From positions 1-46,639 of the IMG/VR virus record IMGVR_UViG_3300021438_000616: 46,639 bases of DNA; one strand, given 5' to 3'. The notes beneath the pieces were generated by a model, which made no database searches, had not been told where the DNA came from, and worked only from the letters and a program-made list of their open reading frames with translations. The position numbers were made by a program, and so were the translations under genes. Each line of letters opens with the position of its first letter. Positions within the stretch are counted from its first letter, which is position 1. Below are positions 4,044-44,633 of this stretch, piece by piece. The stretch is from a virus.

Positions 4044-5164
4044 CAACCACCTAAGATTTTGGAGGCGGCGAGGGCCTCCCTCGCCAAGTCCTCCAAATTA
4101 CGTCCGGGGGGCGCTTGCAGCGCGGCCAAAAACACCTGAATCGCAAGACGGTCCTCAGCCGCCGGGGCAGGCGGCGGCGTCTCATCCTTCCGAGGCCTCC
4201 CTCGTTTTGGCGCGGCCGCGGCCGCGGGCGGCGGTGCAGGCTCTGTGTCTGCGATCGCCGGAGTCATCGCCTCGGGGGGAAGGGTCAGAGACATTTGCTG
4301 CGTTACCGCCTCAATGACCGCCTGTGCGGCGACTGTGGGCGTCGAGGCCTCAATGACCGCCTGTGCGGCGACTGTGGGCGTCGAGGCCTCGGCTGGCGGT
4401 AGCGAGCCTGTGGTAGATTGTTGCGCGGCTGCGGCTTTCATTCGTTGAAGTAGTGACAAGTACGACCTCGTATGTGCTAAAGGGTCAACTGGACAGCGAT
4501 CGCGGTACGGACAACCTCCGTACGCGTCGCACGCTTCAGGGGACGGAGGCAGCTTAGCAACGTCACCTGGTGATGTCGACGAAAAAGCGGCATTTATCTC
4601 GTGGGCGGTAGCATCGCACCGCGCGAGCCCCTCGCGCAATTCGTGCGCTTGAAGGCGCGCGGAGACGAGGTGGGCGGTTGGAGGAGGTACGGTCGACAGA
4701 TAACCGAAGGTAACGTCGACTTGATCGGCCCCCCACTTCTGACAGGCCCAGGCACCATACAGAATCGCTTGCGTGTTGCGTGGGAGGCTCTCCTCCGTCT
4801 CCGCGTACTGAGGGTTGGCGGTGGTCTTATGATCCCACACCCGGGGAATGCCAGTAACCGTATCGAACCACGCTAGGTCGATTCGCCCCTTGTAGTGAGA
4901 GAAGGTGAAAGCATGCTCCACAAGCACTCCAGGCGTCTGAGGAGGAGGCAGCAGCGGTAGTGCCGGTACCACAATCCTCCCCACCCTAGTGTTTATGTCA
5001 GGCACCGTACCGTGAAGTAGCCAGGCCTCAAGGGCTGCATGGCACTCGGTTCCTAGCTTGGCTGCCGGGTGGGCTTCCCCCTTCACTTGCTCCACCCACC
5101 GGTACGACCACTTCCGCTGACACAGGCGCCAAGTATCGATCTCCGTCGCAGACACGAACCTCAT
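4043..5164 (-). CDS. Cas4/RecB-like PD-(D/E)XK nuclease with Fe-S cysteines
   Basis: A 373-residue RecB-family exonuclease. The N-terminal RLCQRKW supplies one cysteine, and the PD-(D/E)XK core follows: H in ECHAALE, D in GRIDLAWFD and DHKTT (D-x-K). Three more cysteines, CDAYGGCPYRDRC, follow near residues 213-225, the spacing expected of a Cas4/AddB-type 4Fe-4S cluster. After residue 240 the chain becomes low complexity. It holds a perfect 13-residue tandem duplication, an AT-hook-like KRGRPRK and a short helical C-terminus. Phage Cas4-like enzymes resect dsDNA ends for recombination. The start ATG at 5164 overlaps the upstream stop (ATGA). No cas1 or cas2 is present, so a CRISPR role is not suggested. 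Confidence 0.85.
   Translation of the reverse strand: MRFVSATEIDTWRLCQRKWSYRWVEQVKGEAHPAAKLGTECHAALEAWLLHGTVPDINTRVGRIVVPALPLLPPPQTPGVLVEHAFTFSHYKGRIDLAWFDTVTGIPRVWDHKTTANPQYAETEESLPRNTQAILYGAWACQKWGADQVDVTFGYLSTVPPPTAHLVSARLQAHELREGLARCDATAHEINAAFSSTSPGDVAKLPPSPEACDAYGGCPYRDRCPVDPLAHTRSYLSLLQRMKAAAAQQSTTGSLPPAEASTPTVAAQAVIEASTPTVAAQAVIEAVTQQMSLTLPPEAMTPAIADTEPAPPPAAAAAPKRGRPRKDETPPPAPAAEDRLAIQVFLAALQAPPGRNLEDLAREALAASKILGG
4309..4386. repeat. 39-bp tandem duplication inside the nuclease gene
   Basis: Two perfect head-to-tail copies of a 39-bp unit (4309-4347 and 4348-4386) encode the same 13 residues twice in the linker after the nuclease core. Because the unit is a multiple of three the frame is kept. 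Perfect identity implies a recent duplication in a flexible, tolerant linker. Confidence 0.95.
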
Positions 5165-5385
5165 GGGAGTTCATCCTCGGAAATCGACCGAATCCAGACC
5201 CACCCGGGTGATGGTGGTCGACGCCATACCGACACAAGCGCGCCCGTCGCGCGGAGCTCCGTCACCTCCTTTAGTGTTCGTGCCTCGTCCGCGTCCGGGA
5301 AGAAACGAATCTCGTGCGGTGGGGTAGGTTGAAGTGGCTGTGTTCGGGGCGGGAGACGCTTGAATATCTTTACATAATTCAACAT
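5161..5385 (-). CDS. small unknown protein, first gene of leftward operon
   Basis: A 74-residue protein that I do not recognise. It is rich in proline and basic residues near the N-terminus (FKRLPPRTQ) and acidic-helical in the middle (PDADEARTLKEVTEL). There is no signal peptide or membrane segment. The ATG at 5385 is preferred over a TTG six bases upstream because a TAGAGT -10 hexamer ends six bases before the ATG, which would give a leaderless mRNA. The stop overlaps the nuclease start (ATGA). As the first gene behind the divergent promoter region it is probably expressed early. Confidence 0.72.
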   Translation of the reverse strand: MLNYVKIFKRLPPRTQPLQPTPPHEIRFFPDADEARTLKEVTELRATGALVSVWRRPPSPGWVWIRSISEDELP

Positions 5386-5391
5386 GTGCAA

Positions 5392-5842: not shown

Positions 5843-5915
5843 ATGTTTTCGCAGACGCCCTCACACGTCTGGCGACTAATGACCCCAACCCGTGGGCGGA
5901 CCCAGGAAAGGTAGC

Positions 5916-8126
5916 ATGCCTGACTCTAAAGTAATAAATATCTTCAGAGGGGTAGATGCCCCCATGCCAGAACACGAAGACACGATCTCCCTGCTCACAC
6001 ACCCCATCGCGCTCGCGACGAAAAAGTGGTACCGCAGCGCTTCGGGGCATATAGCCTCCGAGGCGTACGGTAAGGGTGAGTGGTTCTCGTACCGCGAAGA
6101 GCGCTTGCGAGGGATTGAGGACATCTACGCACTCTTGGCGAAGCTGGCGGGAGAGACTCGCACCTTCGCAATACGGGGGCGGTTGCTCCCTGGTCGTAAG
6201 CCTGAGCAAGTCGCTAGGCGGAAACACGCGAGGGAGGGGTCGGGACCGTTCTTCGAGGAGCGGCCGCGACGCTGGCTCATGCTCGACGTCGACGCCCCGG
6301 ACGGAGGTGGCGGGGACGTGGAGTCAGACGTGCGTACGTACTTGGCACAACTACCGTCGTGGATGAGTTGTGCCACGTGCGTGGCACAACTCTCCGCCTC
6401 TGCCGGTTTCAAAGCCGGGTTCCGTGCCCACTTGTGGTTTTGGCTTGCCCGGCCAGTGGGGGAAAAAGACCTCGTCTCGTGGGGGAAAGAATTGAACGAC
6501 CGTGCAGGTCGCCAAATCATCGACACGTCGGTTTTTCGCACCGTCCAGCCGCATTACATAGCGGACCCTGTGTGTGAAGAGGGGGTCGTAGACCCGTATA
6601 CGGGTGGGCGGCTCGTGAAAGTGGTTGGAACGGTCGACGCGGTTGACTTCCCTGCCGAGGTAGGCGGGCACGTGCGGGATTGGAAGGCAATCGCCGCCAG
6701 GTTGGAGGCGAGCGACAACACGCGCATCCACGACCACTTGAGAGATGCTGCTGGGGCCTACTTCTGTGCGAGGGGGGCCAGCGCGGACGAGGGAGAGCTC
6801 AAAGATGAGCTCATGCGACGCCTGAGCGCCGCGCTGACCGCGTTGGGACGGTCGGACTACTCGGAGGTGGACGTAGACCGAGAGATCGCTTCAGGGCGCG
6901 ACTACGCGCAACGAATGGGGGAGGTGGGAGGGGAGCTACAGATCGCGCCATCGGGGGCGCCATTCGCCAACCCCCACAATCTGAGCATCTTGCTCACAAA
7001 GGGGGAATGGGCAGGCTGCTGGGCGTACGATGTGCGCTCACTACGCTGTAAAGTAATCAAGGACTTACCCAGCGGAGGTGGGCCTGCTCCGCGGGATGTG
7101 GAGGATGCGGACGGACAGCGTATAGCGGCGTACTTGAACAGGAGGCACATGTGCCCGGCAACGGGGAGGGTTGTGCTCGACGCCCTGCCAGCACTGTGCA
7201 AGGAGGCACCCTATGACAAGGTGCGAGAGTATCTGGGAGGTTTGACGTGGGACGGAGTAGACCGCGTGAAGAGTTGGTTAACTACATATTGCGGCGCGGA
7301 GGAGTCTGAATATACGCAAGAAGTAGGACGCATAATGCTCATATCTAGCGTCGCTCGCGCGATGCGGCCCGGGTGCGCGGTAGATACTGTAGTTATTTGG
7401 GAGGGCATGACAGGGATTGGCAAGTCAAAGGGGTTGGAGGACCTCTACGGTAAAGAATTCTACTCCTCGTGCCTACCTTCGATCCAGGACAAGGACGGGG
7501 TGATGGCCCTTCACGGACCGTGGTGTGTGGAAGTGGGGGAAATCGACCAGTACTTTGCGGGTAGGGCGTCAGATCAGATGATGAAAGGGTTCATTACAAC
7601 TCACACCGACGACTTCAGACCGCCGTATGGTCGTACTACCGAGCGACACCCTCGCTCGTGCGTGCTCGTAGGCACCACGAATGCCGATGAATATCTGACC
7701 GATATGACATCACACAGGCGCTACCTACCTGTGAGATGCGTAAAGGTCGACCGAGGCGCCATCCGCAGAGACCGCGATCAACTCTGGGCGGAAGCAAAAG
7801 TGTTGTGGGAGGCGGACACTGCGTGGTGGTATGAGGCTACCGACCCACGCTTTCTAGCAGAACAGATAGCGCGTCGTGAGGGGGACGAGTGGACGGAGCG
7901 AGTGTCGAGGGCTCTCGCGCGGGGGGCGCAATGCGCCTTCTCAGAGGTGGGAATCCCGCCGATCCCCGCGGGGGCGGCTAGCGTGACGAACGCTCAGATG
8001 TGGGCGCATGTACTCAACATTGCGAACCCGTCCAACCGCGAGGGCAGAAGGCTCAAGAGAGTTATGGCGGAGCTGGGCTGGGTGCCATCTCGGACGAAGT
8101 CCGAGCGAGGTTACCGCCGCCCATAA
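5916..8126 (+). CDS. primase-helicase (AEP-like primase plus VirE/VapE P-loop domain)
   Basis: A 736-residue replication protein. The N-terminal half resembles archaeo-eukaryotic-type primases, with a LMLDVDA metal-binding motif at about residues 121-127, an RAHLWFW motif and a later VFRTVQPHY region. The C-terminal half is a virulence-associated E (PF05272) P-loop ATPase: GMTGIGKS Walker A near residues 497-505, WCVEVGEID Walker B, then a GTTNADEYL sensor and an HRRYLPV arginine-finger region. Such fusions prime and unwind DNA at phage or plasmid origins. The ATG at 5916 has a strong AGGAAAGG five bases upstream; a GTG at 5892 lacks one. A terminator follows at 8146-8184 and the iteron region lies just beyond, consistent with an initiator acting next to its gene. 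Confidence 0.87.
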   Translation: MPDSKVINIFRGVDAPMPEHEDTISLLTHPIALATKKWYRSASGHIASEAYGKGEWFSYREERLRGIEDIYALLAKLAGETRTFAIRGRLLPGRKPEQVARRKHAREGSGPFFEERPRRWLMLDVDAPDGGGGDVESDVRTYLAQLPSWMSCATCVAQLSASAGFKAGFRAHLWFWLARPVGEKDLVSWGKELNDRAGRQIIDTSVFRTVQPHYIADPVCEEGVVDPYTGGRLVKVVGTVDAVDFPAEVGGHVRDWKAIAARLEASDNTRIHDHLRDAAGAYFCARGASADEGELKDELMRRLSAALTALGRSDYSEVDVDREIASGRDYAQRMGEVGGELQIAPSGAPFANPHNLSILLTKGEWAGCWAYDVRSLRCKVIKDLPSGGGPAPRDVEDADGQRIAAYLNRRHMCPATGRVVLDALPALCKEAPYDKVREYLGGLTWDGVDRVKSWLTTYCGAEESEYTQEVGRIMLISSVARAMRPGCAVDTVVIWEGMTGIGKSKGLEDLYGKEFYSSCLPSIQDKDGVMALHGPWCVEVGEIDQYFAGRASDQMMKGFITTHTDDFRPPYGRTTERHPRSCVLVGTTNADEYLTDMTSHRRYLPVRCVKVDRGAIRRDRDQLWAEAKVLWEADTAWWYEATDPRFLAEQIARREGDEWTERVSRALARGAQCAFSEVGIPPIPAGAASVTNAQMWAHVLNIANPSNREGRRLKRVMAELGWVPSRTKSERGYRRP
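6365..6392. repeat. perfect 13-bp inverted repeat inside the primase gene
   Basis: GAGTTGTGCCACG and its exact complement are separated by only TG. A partial direct copy (TTGGCACAACT) lies 39 bases upstream. The two-base spacer suits a dimeric protein site better than an RNA hairpin. Shorter GTGGCA...TGCCAC palindromes occur at 10664-10681 and 22985-23000. Confidence 0.8.
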
Positions 8127-8145
8127 CACAGAAAGAAGACGTCAA

Positions 8146-8184
8146 AACGGCCCGAGGCGATGCGCTTCGGGCCGTTTCTTTTTG
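8146..8184 (+). terminator. Rho-independent terminator after primase-helicase
   Basis: A 14-bp stem (AAACGGCCCGAGGC with GCTTCGGGCCGTTT, one G-U pair), a five-base loop and a run CTTTTT. It begins 20 bases after the primase stop and should end the early rightward transcript before the origin region. Confidence 0.93.
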
Positions 8185-8355
8185 AGTTATGTGAGTTTTC
8201 TTCCAAGAGATCCGTATTTAGTAGGTGCAGAGATGCTACATGTGAGTAGAGTGTGGTGTACGTCCCTCGCGTGACTTAGATGTCAGGGGGGTATAACCTT
8301 CAGGGCTCCAACCCCCTAGAAAAACACAAAATAGGGTGATATCGTAAGCGCTTGG

Positions 8356-8669
8356 TGACAGTAGAAGTGTCATACGACTATTGTCTAGCGTCATCTGTCA
8401 TTCCCGCGGAAAAGTGGCGCTCGGGAGTGTTTTTAATATCGTATGACAGTATGACAGTAGATTCCGTCTGTAGTAGGGTTTGATGTGAGACGATATTACG
8501 GGCTTAATCTAGAGTGAGGGTAGTAACCCCCTATACCCTGATGAAAAAGTACCCTATATATAGGTAGGGGTGTTTTACTGTCACTACTGTCACCAGAGTC
8601 ACTAACTGCACGAAATTGTTCATGAAACACAGGTGTCACTTCTACTGTCATCTACTGTCACTACTGTCA
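8356..8669. repeat. iterons TGACAGTAG / CTACTGTCA in convergent arrays
   Basis: Forward copies lie at 8356-8364, 8444-8452 (last base changed) and 8452-8460. Reverse copies lie at 8575-8583 (one base changed), 8584-8592, 8642-8650, 8652-8660 and 8661-8669. The two orientations face each other across an AT-rich core. Partial copies (CTGTCA, GTGTCA) are scattered between them. Confidence 0.85.
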
Positions 8670-8684
8670 CCACTTCCAATACTT

Positions 8685-8690
8685 TATAAT
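8685..8690 (+). promoter_or_regulatory. consensus -10 box TATAAT at edge of iterons
   Basis: A perfect TATAAT lies 15 bases after the last iteron. Any -35 box with normal spacing would overlap that iteron, so a protein bound to the repeats could block or modulate this promoter. It would transcribe the small terminase gene with a leader of about 65 bases. Confidence 0.5.
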
Positions 8691-8748
8691 TCCGATATGT
8701 TGTGCTTTCTGGAAGTCTGGAATTCTATCCCGGCCTCGGTCAGTGTGG

Positions 8749-8754
8749 TATGCT
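8749..8754 (+). promoter_or_regulatory. -10 element TATGCT before small terminase
   Basis: TATGCT ends six bases before the ATG at 8761, the leaderless placement found at many other starts. No TTGNNN box is found 16-18 bases upstream. Confidence 0.4.
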
Positions 8755-8760
8755 GCACCC

Positions 8761-9285
8761 ATGTCTGATTCTGTTAAAGCGTGGGATAGGTCACCTCTCG
8801 ACACCGACATCGGGTGGACGATGTTTCAGGAGCACCGCGACACGCCCCCCTCTATGCGTCCGGAGTTCTCCGTCAGCGCGCGGGCGCTGGCGTCCAAGTA
8901 CAACTTACACCTACAGGAGGTATACAACATCGCGCTAAATGCGATGTGGAAGGAGCGCATCCGCGCATACGACCGGGCGCAAGCGCGGGCGGCGTGCCGC
9001 ATCCCTATTGCTGACACCAGGGTGCCAGCAGCGCGTCACACTGAGCTTGCGCGGGCGTGCGGCGAGACTGCCGCAATCGAGGCGCGTAGGCTGCTCTACG
9101 AAGCGCGGGAGGGTCGTTCGCGTCTACGCCCTGCGGACGTCCTCCGCCTGGGTGAGTTTGCGCTTAAGTGGGAGCGACTCATAGCTGGGCAGGCGACTGA
9201 GCATGTGCAACATAGTTTGGAGTCCTTGACTACAGAGGAACTCCAGACATTGCTTGAGCTAGAAAAAAAAGCAGGTTGCGTTTGA
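8761..9285 (+). CDS. probable terminase small subunit (HTH protein)
   Basis: A 174-residue helical protein. A helix-turn-helix-like segment at about residues 38-62 (SARALASKYNLHLQEVYNIA) is followed by long charged helices. The C-terminal stretch, RLIAGQATEHVQH then LTTEELQTLLELEKKAG, resembles the oligomerisation and tail region of many phage small terminases. Small terminases bind the packaging site and recruit the large subunit, here at 16142-17656. The ATG at 8761 is chosen over a GTG at 8743 because the -10 element TATGCT lies between them. Its place beside the iteron region would suit a protein that recognises a nearby pac or cos site. Assignment is by pattern; a general DNA-binding regulator is the alternative. 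Confidence 0.6.
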   Translation: MSDSVKAWDRSPLDTDIGWTMFQEHRDTPPSMRPEFSVSARALASKYNLHLQEVYNIALNAMWKERIRAYDRAQARAACRIPIADTRVPAARHTELARACGETAAIEARRLLYEAREGRSRLRPADVLRLGEFALKWERLIAGQATEHVQHSLESLTTEELQTLLELEKKAGCV

Positions 9286-9534: not shown

Positions 9535-10083
9535 ATGAAACTCACCAAGATTTATGGGACCACGTCTGCTCGCGGTTATCGCACGCTCCGCCATGGGTGG
9601 CTCTCTCCGCCAGCCCCGTTTTTGGCTCCGAACAGCGTGCGAGGGTGGGCGTTCGGGGGGTCCGCGGAGCGTCCTTCGACGCTCAAGATCTTAACAGGAG
9701 AGGAGCTGATTCCGTCATGGGATCGTTGTGCACAAGCGATAGTCGCTTTTGCTGCTCGCGCTCCGCGCGGAGTACCGTCCACTTGGGTGGACGAGTATGA
9801 CATTTCTTGCCTGGAACGTCTCGGCGCACCTGGCCCTCGGGTGCCGTGCAACGATGCCAGCGCCGCAACAGTCGCGTGGGTACTGGAACACATACTTGGC
9901 CCTTGGCGTACCAGAGAGGCCATGAGGCTATATAGAGGGTGGTCGGACCGTGAGGCTGGACTGGACACAGAGCCCGGGTGCATTCGCTCCCCGGAGGATT
10001 TGATCGCCGCTTGCAATAGTTCGCACTTCGAGTTGCGATTTGAGCGGTTTGGAGCCGCACTGTTGGTTAATCTGGCGTGTTGA
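9535..10083 (+). CDS. unknown protein
   Basis: A 182-residue protein with no family I recognise. It begins MKLTKIYGTTSARG, has a proline-rich middle (APRGVPSTW) and helical segments toward the C-terminus (TVAWVLEHILGPW). There is no signal peptide or membrane segment. The ATG at 9535 is set by the promoter just upstream; the frame is open further up, but that region overlaps the membrane protein gene. A 29-bp segment near the C-terminal coding end (9976-10004, coding GCIRSPEDLI) recurs at the end of the next gene, showing local duplication. Confidence 0.6.
   Translation: MKLTKIYGTTSARGYRTLRHGWLSPPAPFLAPNSVRGWAFGGSAERPSTLKILTGEELIPSWDRCAQAIVAFAARAPRGVPSTWVDEYDISCLERLGAPGPRVPCNDASAATVAWVLEHILGPWRTREAMRLYRGWSDREAGLDTEPGCIRSPEDLIAACNSSHFELRFERFGAALLVNLAC
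9976..10004 (+). repeat. 29-bp direct repeat, copy 1
   Basis: Identical to 10354-10382. A second repeat pair (10078-10103 and 10383-10408, 26 bp, one mismatch) follows. In the second locus the two elements are adjacent, while here 73 bases separate them, as if that interval was deleted from one copy or inserted in the other. Confidence 0.95.
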
Positions 10084-10105
10084 TTGACGTTCTCTGCGAG
10101 TAACC

Positions 10106-10388
10106 ATGAGTAACATCGAACTCACCAAGACACCCTGGTGTCCGTGGTGCTTTGCGGACTGAGGAGCGTGAAGACGCGCTCGATGTGCACGTCGAACCAA
10201 CCCGGAGCGGCTGGCACTGCAAGGATTGTGGCGTGAGCCTCCCGCGCGAGCAGTGGGCAGCCGCAATGCGGTGGGCGGCCCGGTTCTATGGCTACAGCGA
10301 AGGATGGGGCCGACGTTTCTCGCGCACTGGACTCGTGCGTCGTCGCTCCAAGGGGGTGCATTCGCTCCCCGGAGGATTTGATTGTTGA
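10106..10388 (+). pseudogene. zinc-ribbon gene split by a +1 frameshift
   Basis: An ATG at 10106 opens a frame that reads MSNIELTKTPWCPWCFAD and stops at 10162. The next frame, open from before 10152 to 10388, continues TEERED... and contains HCKDCGVS. Together CPWC and CKDC give a complete CxxC-CxxC zinc ribbon of the kind found in small Lar-like phage proteins. The shift point is near TGC TTT GCG GAC TGA. Near the end the 29-bp repeat appears, but in a frame different from its frame in the upstream gene, after a G5 run. A decayed gene, a sequencing error or programmed +1 shifting could each explain this. The total product would be about 93 residues. Confidence 0.55.
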
Positions 10389-10408
10389 TTGACGTTCTCG
10401 GCGAGTAA
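10354..10408 (+). repeat. direct repeats, copy 2 (29 bp plus 26 bp, adjacent)
   Basis: 10354-10382 matches 9976-10004 exactly, and 10383-10408 matches 10078-10103 with one mismatch. Both span the end of a gene, and the second pair runs into the following promoter region. Confidence 0.93.
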
Positions 10409-10415
10409 ATAGTCC

Positions 10416-10443
10416 TTGCATTAAATCGTAAAAAGGTTAACAT
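10416..10443 (+). promoter_or_regulatory. leaderless promoter TTGCAT-16-TAACAT
   Basis: TTGCAT, 16 bases, TAACAT, then seven bases to the ATG at 10451. It shares the 13-base AAATAGTCCTTGC and the GGTTAAYATC core with the promoter at 10878. Confidence 0.7.
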
Positions 10444-10450
10444 CTAAAAC

Positions 10451-10639
10451 ATGAACAGCGTACGACACAACGCCGAGCTCCTCGACACGTTCAAACTCCT
10501 CGCCGCCCAGTCCGTCGTAAATGCGTCGCTAGTTTTCGCGCACTACTGTGACCAGTTGACGGTCGCAGAGCGCGTAATCGCGCTGGACATCCTTACCTCA
10601 GCCGCAGCCGCGAAAGGGAGTAAGTGCGTTTCAACGTAA
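10451..10639 (+). CDS. small unknown helical protein
   Basis: A 62-residue, mostly alpha-helical protein (NAELLDTFKLLAAQSVVNAS, then TVAERVIALDILTSAAAA). It has no membrane segment long enough to span and no motif I recognise. It has the promoter at 10416-10443, so its mRNA is probably leaderless. The last 16 bases overlap the ribbon-helix-helix gene that follows, which suggests the two are expressed together. Confidence 0.62.
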   Translation: MNSVRHNAELLDTFKLLAAQSVVNASLVFAHYCDQLTVAERVIALDILTSAAAAKGSKCVST

Positions 10640-10833: not shown

Positions 10834-10874
10834 TCCGATATATACAGGCGGCGATTATGGCACCTTGCAAATAG
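10830..10874 (+). CDS. possible 14-residue micropeptide
   Basis: ATG at 10830 overlaps the stop of the ribbon-helix-helix gene (ATGA) and has GGAG five bases upstream. It encodes MIRYIQAAIMAPCK, then TAG. The stop lies within the sequence leading into the next promoter. It may be a real micropeptide or a chance start. Confidence 0.25.
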   Translation: MIRYIQAAIMAPCK

Positions 10875-10877
10875 TCC

Positions 10878-10906
10878 TTGCGCCTGCGAGCGAGAGAGGT
10901 TAATAT
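10878..10906 (+). promoter_or_regulatory. leaderless promoter TTGCGC-17-TAATAT
   Basis: TTGCGC, 17 bases, TAATAT, then seven bases to the ATG at 10914. Preceded by the shared AAATAGTCCTTGC block. Confidence 0.7.
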
Positions 10907-10913
10907 CCTAAAT

Positions 10914-11099
10914 ATGAAGACTCCGCTGAAAGACCTAGGACGCCGAATCGCCCGCAATTACACCGCTCGCGAGTACGCCTGCGAAATTAGAACAGAGCTC
11001 GACCAGCTCGATGGCCTCACCCCCCGCGAGCGCAAGGCGCTCGAAGACGCTGCGTGGTCTCATGCTCACGAAGCTCGCCGCGAGCGAGGTGGTCGATGA
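10914..11099 (+). CDS. small unknown charged protein
   Basis: A 61-residue, highly charged and helical protein (KTPLKDLGRRIARNY, then ELDQLDGLTPRERKALEDAAW). It has no membrane segment or known motif. The promoter directly upstream fixes the ATG at 10914. The stop overlaps the next start (ATGA), so the two genes form a small operon. Confidence 0.62.
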   Translation: MKTPLKDLGRRIARNYTAREYACEIRTELDQLDGLTPRERKALEDAAWSHAHEARRERGGR

Positions 11100-41843: not shown

Positions 41844-43720
41844 GGTTCGTCCCACGGTATTAATTTCCCTTCCTGGTTGTATTTTGCTTCGGTGTCCTTG
41901 TGCCACCTGTACGAGAGTGCAGGTGTCACGGTGGCGGGAACATCCGGAATCCACCGCAAAGACTCCACCTTAATTATTTCACCCACACGCGACGCGGCCA
42001 AGTGGGCTGTTGAAGCAGGTGCCTCAACCAGCCACTGATCGTGGATGAAATTTACAGGTCTGCAACCGAAAAGTGGCGAATTTAGCGTGCGGTCGTAGCA
42101 CTCGCGCACGATGAGGAACCCTGTAGCCTTTGCCATCGCAGCGGCCAGGCCCTGGAACATGGCGTTGCACGCGGCGGTATAGGTCACGTTACCCTGGGGT
42201 CGCGAAGTGACGAAATGCCGGATGCTTGTCACGTCGCGACCCTTGTGAGGATTGAAACGCCAGCGGTGCCCCTCCCGCACTTGCGTGAAGTATGTTCGGG
42301 CCTCAGGCCACGTATTCAGATAGAGCTGAATGTATGCCGCCGCCTCGTCGATCGTCAGGTCGACGCCGTAGGAGGTCTTGGCGTAGGCTTGGAGTCCCCT
42401 TGGCCCCATCCCACCAGGGATACCAAAGTTAATAGGTTTCGCTCGTGTGCGAGCGAGCTTCACGCGCGGGTCTTTCTTAGTCGCGAGCACTGAGGCGTAG
42501 TTCTCGCGAAGCATGGCCGCGGCCATGATTAGGTGCGGGTCCTCCTTCGCGTTCAGCGCATCCGCGAGTTTCGACGCACCAGTTACCCAAATGCAGATTT
42601 GAGCGAAGGTGCGCATCTCGGCCAAGTCGTAGTCACAATCGATAAAAACGCGCCCGGGGCGGGCCCGGTAACACTCCCGAATCCCTCCCTTTCGCTTGAT
42701 GTTCTGAATGTTGGGCCCCGACGACCCCGTTCGTCCCGTTTCAAGAATCTCCTCGAAACGGGTGTGGACGTAAGGCACCGAGAGTGCCGGGATGTCCGTC
42801 GACAGCACTTTGCCCAAAGTGCTGATTTCGGAATATTGCGCGAGGCGAGCGTCGTCCGCGTCGCGGCACGCCTCTGCGTCTAAGCAGATCTCGCCCGTAT
42901 CCGTGACGGGTGCCGGCTTGTCAGCCTGCTCGCACGCCCAACGCATGCGAGCCTTAGCCGCTTTCGTGTCTCGCGAGTATCCGACTACGCGCTTGTACGG
43001 CGCGCGGCCAACGCACTTCGCGCGGAGGAGCGGTTGGCTGTGCGCCTCGGGGCCGAGACGGCGACTCAACTCTTCCTGCAACGCCGCTATCTCGCTCTTC
43101 GTCACGGCCTCAAAACGCTTCACACCCTCTACGTCGGTGGCTATCCCCCACGCAGAGGTGAGAAACAGCCACCACTTTGCGCGAGTCTGCGCAAACTCGT
43201 CCACTACCTGGCCACCTTGCGCCTTGTACGTTTCTAAAGTCGCCCTGGCATCATCGAGGGCGTAGGCGATAGCCCCCTCAGGCCATTGCCGGGTCGGTAT
43301 CTCGCGCAAGCTCGCGAAGTCTTTCCGCCACTCATCCTTACGTAGCGTCTTTTTCGTTAGGCGCGCATACACCGCCGACAGGGAATACCCAGGGTTTTTC
43401 CTCAGGGCACTGTAACCCCCGTTGGCGATGTCTATGAGCTTCTGCCGGGTTAACACGTCTGTCACCTCATCGCGGGCGAGTTTCTCCCATACGGCAGGGA
43501 CAAGGTCGGGCCATTGTCGGCACACTTGGGCTAGGTCGTACGGAGTGTTCGCTCCTACGATGGTGTCGTGCCCTGAGAGTACGTCTTCTGCCCACTCGCG
43601 GGCCTCATCGTACTTGAGCAACCCGGCACCGAGGTGCGTAGCCCACGTCACGCACACCAGGCGAGGGATTAGGTCGTCAGGGGAGAATAGTTCAGTTTCA
43701 GTGTCTAAGGCCACAATCAC
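41840..43720 (-). CDS. family A DNA polymerase
   Basis: A 626-residue PolA-type polymerase. The 3'-5' exonuclease starts MIVALDTETELF (D6, E8), with GANTPYDLAQ and AYALDDARATLETY as further exo motifs. The polymerase domain has motif A IDCDYDLAEMRTFAQI, motif B around RAKPINFGIPGGMGPRGLQAYAK, and motif C NFIHDQWLVEAP with Asp 561. Motif C reads HDQ instead of the usual HDE. There is no 5'-3' exonuclease domain, as expected for a phage replicase. GTG start overlaps the methyltransferase stop (GTGA). Confidence 0.93.
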   Translation of the reverse strand: MIVALDTETELFSPDDLIPRLVCVTWATHLGAGLLKYDEAREWAEDVLSGHDTIVGANTPYDLAQVCRQWPDLVPAVWEKLARDEVTDVLTRQKLIDIANGGYSALRKNPGYSLSAVYARLTKKTLRKDEWRKDFASLREIPTRQWPEGAIAYALDDARATLETYKAQGGQVVDEFAQTRAKWWLFLTSAWGIATDVEGVKRFEAVTKSEIAALQEELSRRLGPEAHSQPLLRAKCVGRAPYKRVVGYSRDTKAAKARMRWACEQADKPAPVTDTGEICLDAEACRDADDARLAQYSEISTLGKVLSTDIPALSVPYVHTRFEEILETGRTGSSGPNIQNIKRKGGIRECYRARPGRVFIDCDYDLAEMRTFAQICIWVTGASKLADALNAKEDPHLIMAAAMLRENYASVLATKKDPRVKLARTRAKPINFGIPGGMGPRGLQAYAKTSYGVDLTIDEAAAYIQLYLNTWPEARTYFTQVREGHRWRFNPHKGRDVTSIRHFVTSRPQGNVTYTAACNAMFQGLAAAMAKATGFLIVRECYDRTLNSPLFGCRPVNFIHDQWLVEAPASTAHLAASRVGEIIKVESLRWIPDVPATVTPALSYRWHKDTEAKYNQEGKLIPWDEP

Positions 43721-44532
43721 GTAGGGCGGCCTTTCCTGAACGTTGCACCGCGGAACGCCAGGGGGCCTGCCCCGTCATAGCCAACACTCTTTGCCCATCG
43801 TGCGAAGCGCACCTGGTCGCGCTCCGACAGGCTACCCCGACGTGCGGCCTCTATTCGAACCGCGGCTAGTGCTGCCTCGGATTCGCAACCTACGTACTCG
43901 CGACCTAGCAGAGCGCACGCTACACCGATAGTCCCTCGCCCGGCACACGGGTCGTACACTACCCCCGCTCCCGGGTCGGAGAACCACGCTACCAGATCTA
44001 GAGCCTGATCGAGAGGCTTTGCTGTCGGGTGCTTGTTCTGCCATCGCTCAGCGGTGTGAGTTAGAGCCACGAAGTTGCCAGGCCCTCCCCAATGCATGCG
44101 ACCTTTCGGAGCATGTCCAATCGCAATAAACTCACTCCACCTAGGCGGGCGGGTGCCAGCCAGTTGCGGCATCCACGGCCGGCCCCCCAGGATCGGCCCC
44201 GGGTCCTCATCGTCCAACGGGACGACGGGGGCCATGCGGACATGCTTCGACATACTTTGATGCCATAGTGGAGCATCCTGTAAGTCTGTGTAAACTACAG
44301 ACCACCTCGCCGCCTTAGACATCGCTAGCACGATATGCTCGCGTAGCGGTTCATCCAACGCGGAGAAACCGGCATCCCTGTGCCTGATCCCTTTCAGGTC
44401 CGGTGTTGCGGCCGCCGCGGCGGATGCCATCCGCGCATGCACATGCGCGGCGTACGGAGGGTCGGTGATGACAGACTGGATAGGGACGTCCAGCGCGTTA
44501 TCTCTACAGTTTCCGTGTAGTATGTATTGCAT
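43717..44532 (-). CDS. DNA methyltransferase (DPPY type)
   Basis: A 271-residue amino-methyltransferase from ATG 44532. It starts MQYILHGNCRDNALDVPIQSVITDPPYAA (the catalytic DPPY motif at about residues 22-25). The C-terminal HPTAKPLDQALDLVAWFSDPGAGVVYDPCAGRGTIGVACALLGREYVGCE contains the AdoMet-binding DPxAGxGT. The DPPY-first order indicates a beta-class N6A or N4C enzyme. No restriction partner is nearby, so it probably protects phage DNA. The ATG lies two bases past the 3' end of a tRNA gene, so the mRNA would be leaderless after tRNA processing. Confidence 0.9.
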   Translation of the reverse strand: MQYILHGNCRDNALDVPIQSVITDPPYAAHVHARMASAAAAATPDLKGIRHRDAGFSALDEPLREHIVLAMSKAARWSVVYTDLQDAPLWHQSMSKHVRMAPVVPLDDEDPGPILGGRPWMPQLAGTRPPRWSEFIAIGHAPKGRMHWGGPGNFVALTHTAERWQNKHPTAKPLDQALDLVAWFSDPGAGVVYDPCAGRGTIGVACALLGREYVGCESEAALAAVRIEAARRGSLSERDQVRFARWAKSVGYDGAGPLAFRGATFRKGRPT

Positions 44533-44534
44533 AG

Positions 44535-44606
44535 TCCGCCTGGGCAGAATCGAACTGCCGACCACCGACTTATAAGGTCGGTGCTCTACCTTTAAGCTAC
44601 AGGCGG
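44535..44606 (-). tRNA. tRNA-Ile (anticodon UAU)
   Basis: A 72-base cloverleaf on the minus strand: acceptor CCGCCTG/CAGGCGG, D-arm GCT...AGC with GG in the loop, anticodon stem CCGAC/GTCGG with loop CTTATAA (anticodon TAT), and T-arm GGCAG-TTCGATT-CTGCC. Discriminator A. CCA is not encoded. UAU reads AUA, a codon that is rare in GC-rich hosts. Confidence 0.93.
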
Positions 44607-44633
44607 TAGATGGGCCGCAGGCGCCCACCCAAC

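Follow-up and report, generated by a model that had tools for sequence, protein, structure and literature searches.

A candidate replication origin of facing iterons behind the VapE-type primase-helicase gene of a myophage

Does the array of short repeats at positions 8356-8669 of this 46,639-base virus record (the window, which was analyzed over its full length) act as an origin of replication, as an earlier note on the sequence had proposed, and which protein would read it? The present analysis supports the origin because the helicase encoded just upstream is homologous to the Rep proteins of SaPI satellites, for which iteron origins have been reported directly behind rep, and because, in independent lineages, clusters of repeats occur behind VapE genes significantly more often than expected. 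We assign a probability of approximately 85% to the reading that this region is the replication origin of a myophage and is recognized by the VapE-type primase-helicase. Few origins of environmental phages are known, and in the present case both the origin and its initiator may be named from the sequence.

The record is regarded as that of a full-size myophage because it encodes virion proteins (terminase, portal, head protease, capsid, tail sheath, tape measure, and baseplate) as well as PolA, a class II ribonucleotide reductase, a dUTPase, and exonucleases. Near relatives of the window at the DNA level were absent among phage records, and viral contigs scanned with a single protein likewise yielded no close relative.

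The iteron array and its surroundings

The array consists of eight copies of the iteron TGACAGTAG/CTACTGTCA, with three plus-strand copies on the left facing five minus-strand copies on the right (Table 1). The count of three and five given in the earlier note holds when two copies with one mismatch are included, while the exact copies number six. Tandem copies are spaced at 8-10 bases, and four weaker half-sites lie between the iterons (8368, 8396, 8597, and 8634). The commonest 9-mer in 8127-8742 occurred six times, against a maximum of four, reached once, in 5,000 dinucleotide shuffles. Neither an exact TGACAGTAG copy outside 8356-8669 nor a second cluster of this iteron was present in the record, and the record also had no DnaA box (TTATNCACA) of the type expected for a DnaA-dependent, oriC-type origin.

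Table 1. Coordinates of the array, its core, and the neighboring features in the window
Feature	Position	Strand	Remark
VapE-type primase-helicase, 744 aa, proposed initiator	5892-8126	+	PF05272, E 2e-66; PHROG helicase/primase
C-terminal winged-helix domain, residues 664-744, proposed iteron-binding part	7881-8123	+	AlphaFold model
Rho-independent terminator of the helicase gene	8145-8177	+	strong; 15-pair stem with 10 GC pairs, then CTTTTT
Iteron	8356-8364	+	exact TGACAGTAG
Iteron	8444-8452	+	one mismatch, TGACAGTAT
Iteron	8452-8460	+	exact
AT-richer core between the iteron sets, proposed melting region	8461-8574		57% AT vs 41% in the record
Core element CCCTATA, copy 1	8529-8535	+	CCTATA/CCCTAT enriched behind VapE genes
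Core element CCCTATATATAGG, copy 2	8552-8564		with palindrome CCTATATATAGG at 8553-8564
Iteron	8575-8583	-	one mismatch, TTACTGTCA on the plus strand
Iteron	8584-8592	-	exact
Iteron	8642-8650	-	exact
Iteron	8652-8660	-	exact
Iteron	8661-8669	-	exact
Neighbor gene, weakly small-terminase-like, outside the origin	8743-9285	+	phrog_6299, E 0.0096

The setting described in the earlier note was confirmed in that the array follows the primase-helicase gene and its terminator and lies in a 616-base gap (8127-8742) between this gene and the next, which is the longest stretch found without a convincing gene. The description of the 114-base core as AT-rich was borne out in part: its AT content exceeds that of the record, but the outer parts are equally AT-rich (55-58%), so that the term is a relative one and the contrast is modest.

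The VapE-type helicase as the proposed initiator

The N terminus of the 744-aa protein is primase-like, as judged from its PHROG helicase/primase matches. The single match to solved structures was 7pds, described as "similar to D. nodosus vapE" (E 8e-34; profile E 9e-103) and entitled "The structure of PriRep1 with dsDNA"; PriRep1 is a replication helicase of SaPIs. An alignment-based AlphaFold model of residues 345-744 (mean pLDDT 90.4, pTM 0.82), which superseded a single-sequence model of the whole protein with a pLDDT of 36, was superimposed on 7pds over 393 residues (Z 32.8, rmsd 3.9, 23% identity), and this match spans the last 400 residues end to end, with the C-terminal domain included. 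The next structures, namely, the NrS-1 primase-helicase, the SaPI5 primase-helicase, the asfarvirus PrimPol, and poxvirus D5/E5, scored much lower (Z 10-15). For the last 80 residues, the predicted fold is helix-strand-helix-helix-strand-strand, which corresponds to a winged helix. This C-terminal domain is likelier to be the part that binds the iterons than the N terminus, for which the earlier note had suggested a binding check. We found no solved structure of this winged-helix domain bound to its own iteron.

A possible course of initiation is as follows. The C-terminal winged helix would bind the iterons in both the left and the right set, and the two facing sets may then load helicase rings on each side of the core, which would melt at its CCCTATA/TATATA elements. 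The rings would subsequently travel apart, and the primase part of the same protein, together with the phage DNA polymerase A, may start two forks, giving a bidirectional start. A self-loading helicase with an iteron origin downstream of its gene is a system of a known kind, which is encountered here in a full-size myophage, outside the satellites.

Repeats behind VapE genes in other lineages

Annotated phages picked by VapE homology were inspected in a first test. Opposed, lineage-specific repeats lie immediately behind the helicase gene in many of them, each with its own word: GTTGTTCC in the Corynebacterium phage StAB, CTGTCCCAC in LPPA36, GGTCACCCC in the Marinobacter phage PS3, GTACCAACC in APSE-3, TACTGCAACA in the Paenibacillus phage GaryLarson, TGATGCAACA in Staphylococcus phage 47, GTGTCTACA in PLE2, and GTAGTCA in the satellite Javan724. 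The layout was not clear in FoX1, RcPeripeteia, phiLNTR2, and the Bacteroides and Phocaeicola phages among the annotated VapE phages.

The second test used three scans of viral contigs by protein alignment only (240 rows). A usable VapE frame was present at 201 loci, which collapsed into 33 non-redundant lineages at 70% identity, and a cluster was defined as a 7-mer repeated at least five times in a 300-base window. Clusters were present in 20 lineages and absent in 13. The strongest one fell between -100 and +1000 of the VapE stop in 14 of these 20 (2.4 expected, binomial p 2e-9) and elsewhere in the other six. The repeat count right behind the VapE gene averaged 4.2, compared with 2.3 in control windows of the same loci (Wilcoxon p 2e-5), and the AT content downstream exceeded the locus mean in 28 of the 33 lineages. 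As a positive control, the same repeat score placed the annotated crr and ori of phage P4 first and second.

These neighborhoods also bear on whether the array may be a packaging initiation (pac/cos) site bound by the product of the gene at 8743-9285. It is common for a small terminase to bind DNA close to the gene that encodes it, and the repeats end 74 bases ahead of this gene. The earlier note had the array bordering the small terminase; a gene does start at 8743, but its assignment is a single weak match, and the large subunit lies 7 kb from the repeats. Furthermore, the conserved neighbor of such repeats in the annotated phages is the VapE helicase, whereas the genes annotated downstream encode nucleases, hypothetical proteins, and others, none of them a small terminase. 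A packaging site is, therefore, considered to be highly improbable.

An equally slim chance is given to an operator array, in which a phage repressor or regulator bound to the repeats would act on either the helicase gene or the operon downstream. The repeats do lie between the terminator and the next operon, and an origin may double as an operator. The earlier note had additionally expected a TATAAT box just after the last copy to be governed by whatever binds the iterons; the box is present at 8685-8690, but a promoter scan finds no site there, and this promoter reading was dropped. Moreover, the distribution of eight sites across 314 bases, with two opposed sets enclosing a core, is origin-like, and the position of the repeats after the helicase gene is kept in lineages that differ considerably in the genes further downstream. 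A pure operator explains neither the two-set layout nor the conserved position.

Regarding the core of the proposed origin, CCTATA was found in 10 and CCCTAT in 10 of 25 iteron regions, for which control windows predict approximately one each. Since the element was first noticed in these regions, it was checked on fresh lineages: either word occurred within 350 bases of the VapE stop in 15 of 32, compared with 14% in an AT-matched control (the p value of 1.5e-6 refers to an unmatched control), and TATATA occurred within the same distance in 15 of 32, compared with 7% in the AT-matched control. CCCTATA/TATATA was also observed to recur in the core between the iteron sets of unrelated lineages. 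A natural guess is that it represents a candidate melting or priming element.

We are evenly divided on a broader proposal, namely, that ordinary tailed phages with VapE/SF3 helicases generally replicate by means of the satellite-type rep-ori layout, in which the C-terminal winged helix would recognize a lineage-specific iteron and a CCTATA/TATATA core common to the lineages would serve as the melting or priming site. If true, the origins of hundreds of phages could be predicted from their sequences, and PICI replicons would have been drawn from a phage-wide pool. This proposal contrasts with a statement from 2018 that the PICI rep-ori layout is shared by "no other known bacterial replicon" (PMC6092414); our search of open papers returned nothing relevant on the letters of the iteron or on VapE with an iteron, and newer or subscription literature may already make the same claim. 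The rule of searching for opposed iterons downstream of the VapE gene holds in many lineages and is, therefore, testable on cultured phages, such as StAB and GaryLarson. A link is also drawn between ordinary phages and the way in which pathogenicity-island satellites replicate, which is relevant to the source of satellite replicons.

Relation to known replicons and occurrence of the same iteron word

In the SaPI/PICI and P4 satellites, helicases of this type start replication at iterons directly behind their own gene, with two sets flanking an AT-rich stretch. In the origins of PICIs, two iteron sets flank an AT-rich region 3' of rep, and the rep-ori unit drives plasmid replication (PMC6092414). 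The present locus shares with the rep-ori units of SaPIbov1, SaPI1, and EcCICFT073 a homologous helicase, as indicated by the PriRep1 match, and an origin directly behind its gene, in the order of stop codon (8126), terminator, and first iteron (8356); two iteron sets likewise flank a core, which is just 57% AT. A further feature of the PICI type is binding of the iterons by the C-terminal domain of Rep, and for the present protein a winged helix is predicted at this end. It differs in its iteron word, TGACAGTAG, and in its full-size myophage genome with PolA and ribonucleotide reductase; while a PICI, as a satellite, relies on the virion genes of its helper, this record has its own, from terminase to baseplate.

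The alpha protein of P4 similarly combines a primase, a helicase, and a C-terminal winged helix (the latter known for P4 from the literature) with opposed short iterons, and the alpha gene is followed by a terminator and then by crr, in the same order of gene, terminator, and iterons as here. However, P4 uses two separate sites, ori and crr, against the one site found in the record, and its top word, GTGAACA, differs from TGACAGTAG, which does not place the present iterons in the P4 type I. The P4 arrangement raises the question of whether the array is an accessory cis region similar to crr, or a set of incompatibility or copy-control iterons, with the true start elsewhere in the genome. The two repeat sites bound by alpha are approximately 4.7 kb apart, and the cumulative GC skew of the record, which the earlier note had suggested as a check, turns near 4.2 kb (minimum 4203, maximum 39143) and does not mark the site at 8.5 kb. 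The skew follows gene direction and is not informative, neither supporting nor refuting an origin at 8.5 kb. The record lacks a second cluster to act as the partner site, and the PICI origin is the very region immediately 3' of rep; we regard an accessory role as very unlikely.

Two further systems resemble the proposed origin in part. Cch2 of SCCmec is also a self-loading helicase, the C-terminal domain of which binds repeats downstream of its gene, but it belongs to another helicase subfamily and has three AAGTG repeats with no two-set layout described (PMC7581432). ORF904 of plasmid pRN1 combines a prim-pol, an SF3 helicase, and a winged helix with an essential region downstream of the gene; however, the required element is a 3' stem-loop rather than iterons (PMC4234260).

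Viral contigs were also scanned for tandem TGACAGTAG. Clusters were found beside VapE helicases in one lineage (L016, L017, and L024) and in the broken locus L019, and beside other helicases of the TOPRIM type (L007), the D5 type (L021), and the PriCT-2/DUF5906 type (L022), homologs of the last being carried by the phages Suzuki and AhaSv. In each of these loci, the helicase gene has the cluster on its 3' side. We considered and rejected TGACAGTAG as a code shared with the non-VapE helicases: because the loci were selected by the word, the shared wording may reflect 9-base iterons that converged by chance in a very large pool of origins. Their position relative to the helicase gene, which is also shared, played no part in the selection. 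Of the 60 loci obtained when 84,980 genomes were scanned for tandem iterons, most were in-frame repeats or two-copy chance matches, and the sole locus confirmed as a full origin-like site was that of Verrucomicrobiaceae E54 (L068), the helicase of which shows similarity to DUF5906; clusters were also present on short contigs (L054, L077, L078, and L097). In a distant relative found via its terminase (L030), the VapE gene has its own GGTTGGTCAGG-type repeats at the 3' end (L361), which occupy the same place with a different word.

Some minor observations were made on these contigs and on the record. In L019, the VapE gene at 6246-7324 is split into two frames and adjoins TGACAGTAG iterons with a second word, GCACAAC, around them. 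Five TGACAGTAG-like sites occupy a gene-poor stretch (4975-5390) of L008, a phage contig that encodes a DNA polymerase but has no VapE match. In the record, two copies of AAATAGTCCTTGC...GGTTAA(C/T)ATC...AAA(C/T)ATG (10405-10455 and 10870-10918), each ahead of a small gene, look like a repeated phage promoter and leader, and the direct repeat TTGATTGACGTTCTC(T/G)GCGAGTAA lies at two gene boundaries (10080-10105 and 10383-10408). A tRNA-Ile gene with the anticodon TAT (44534-44606, minus strand) overlaps the 5' end of a long DNA methyltransferase ORF (43717-44628), and the methyltransferase gene, therefore, probably starts further in.
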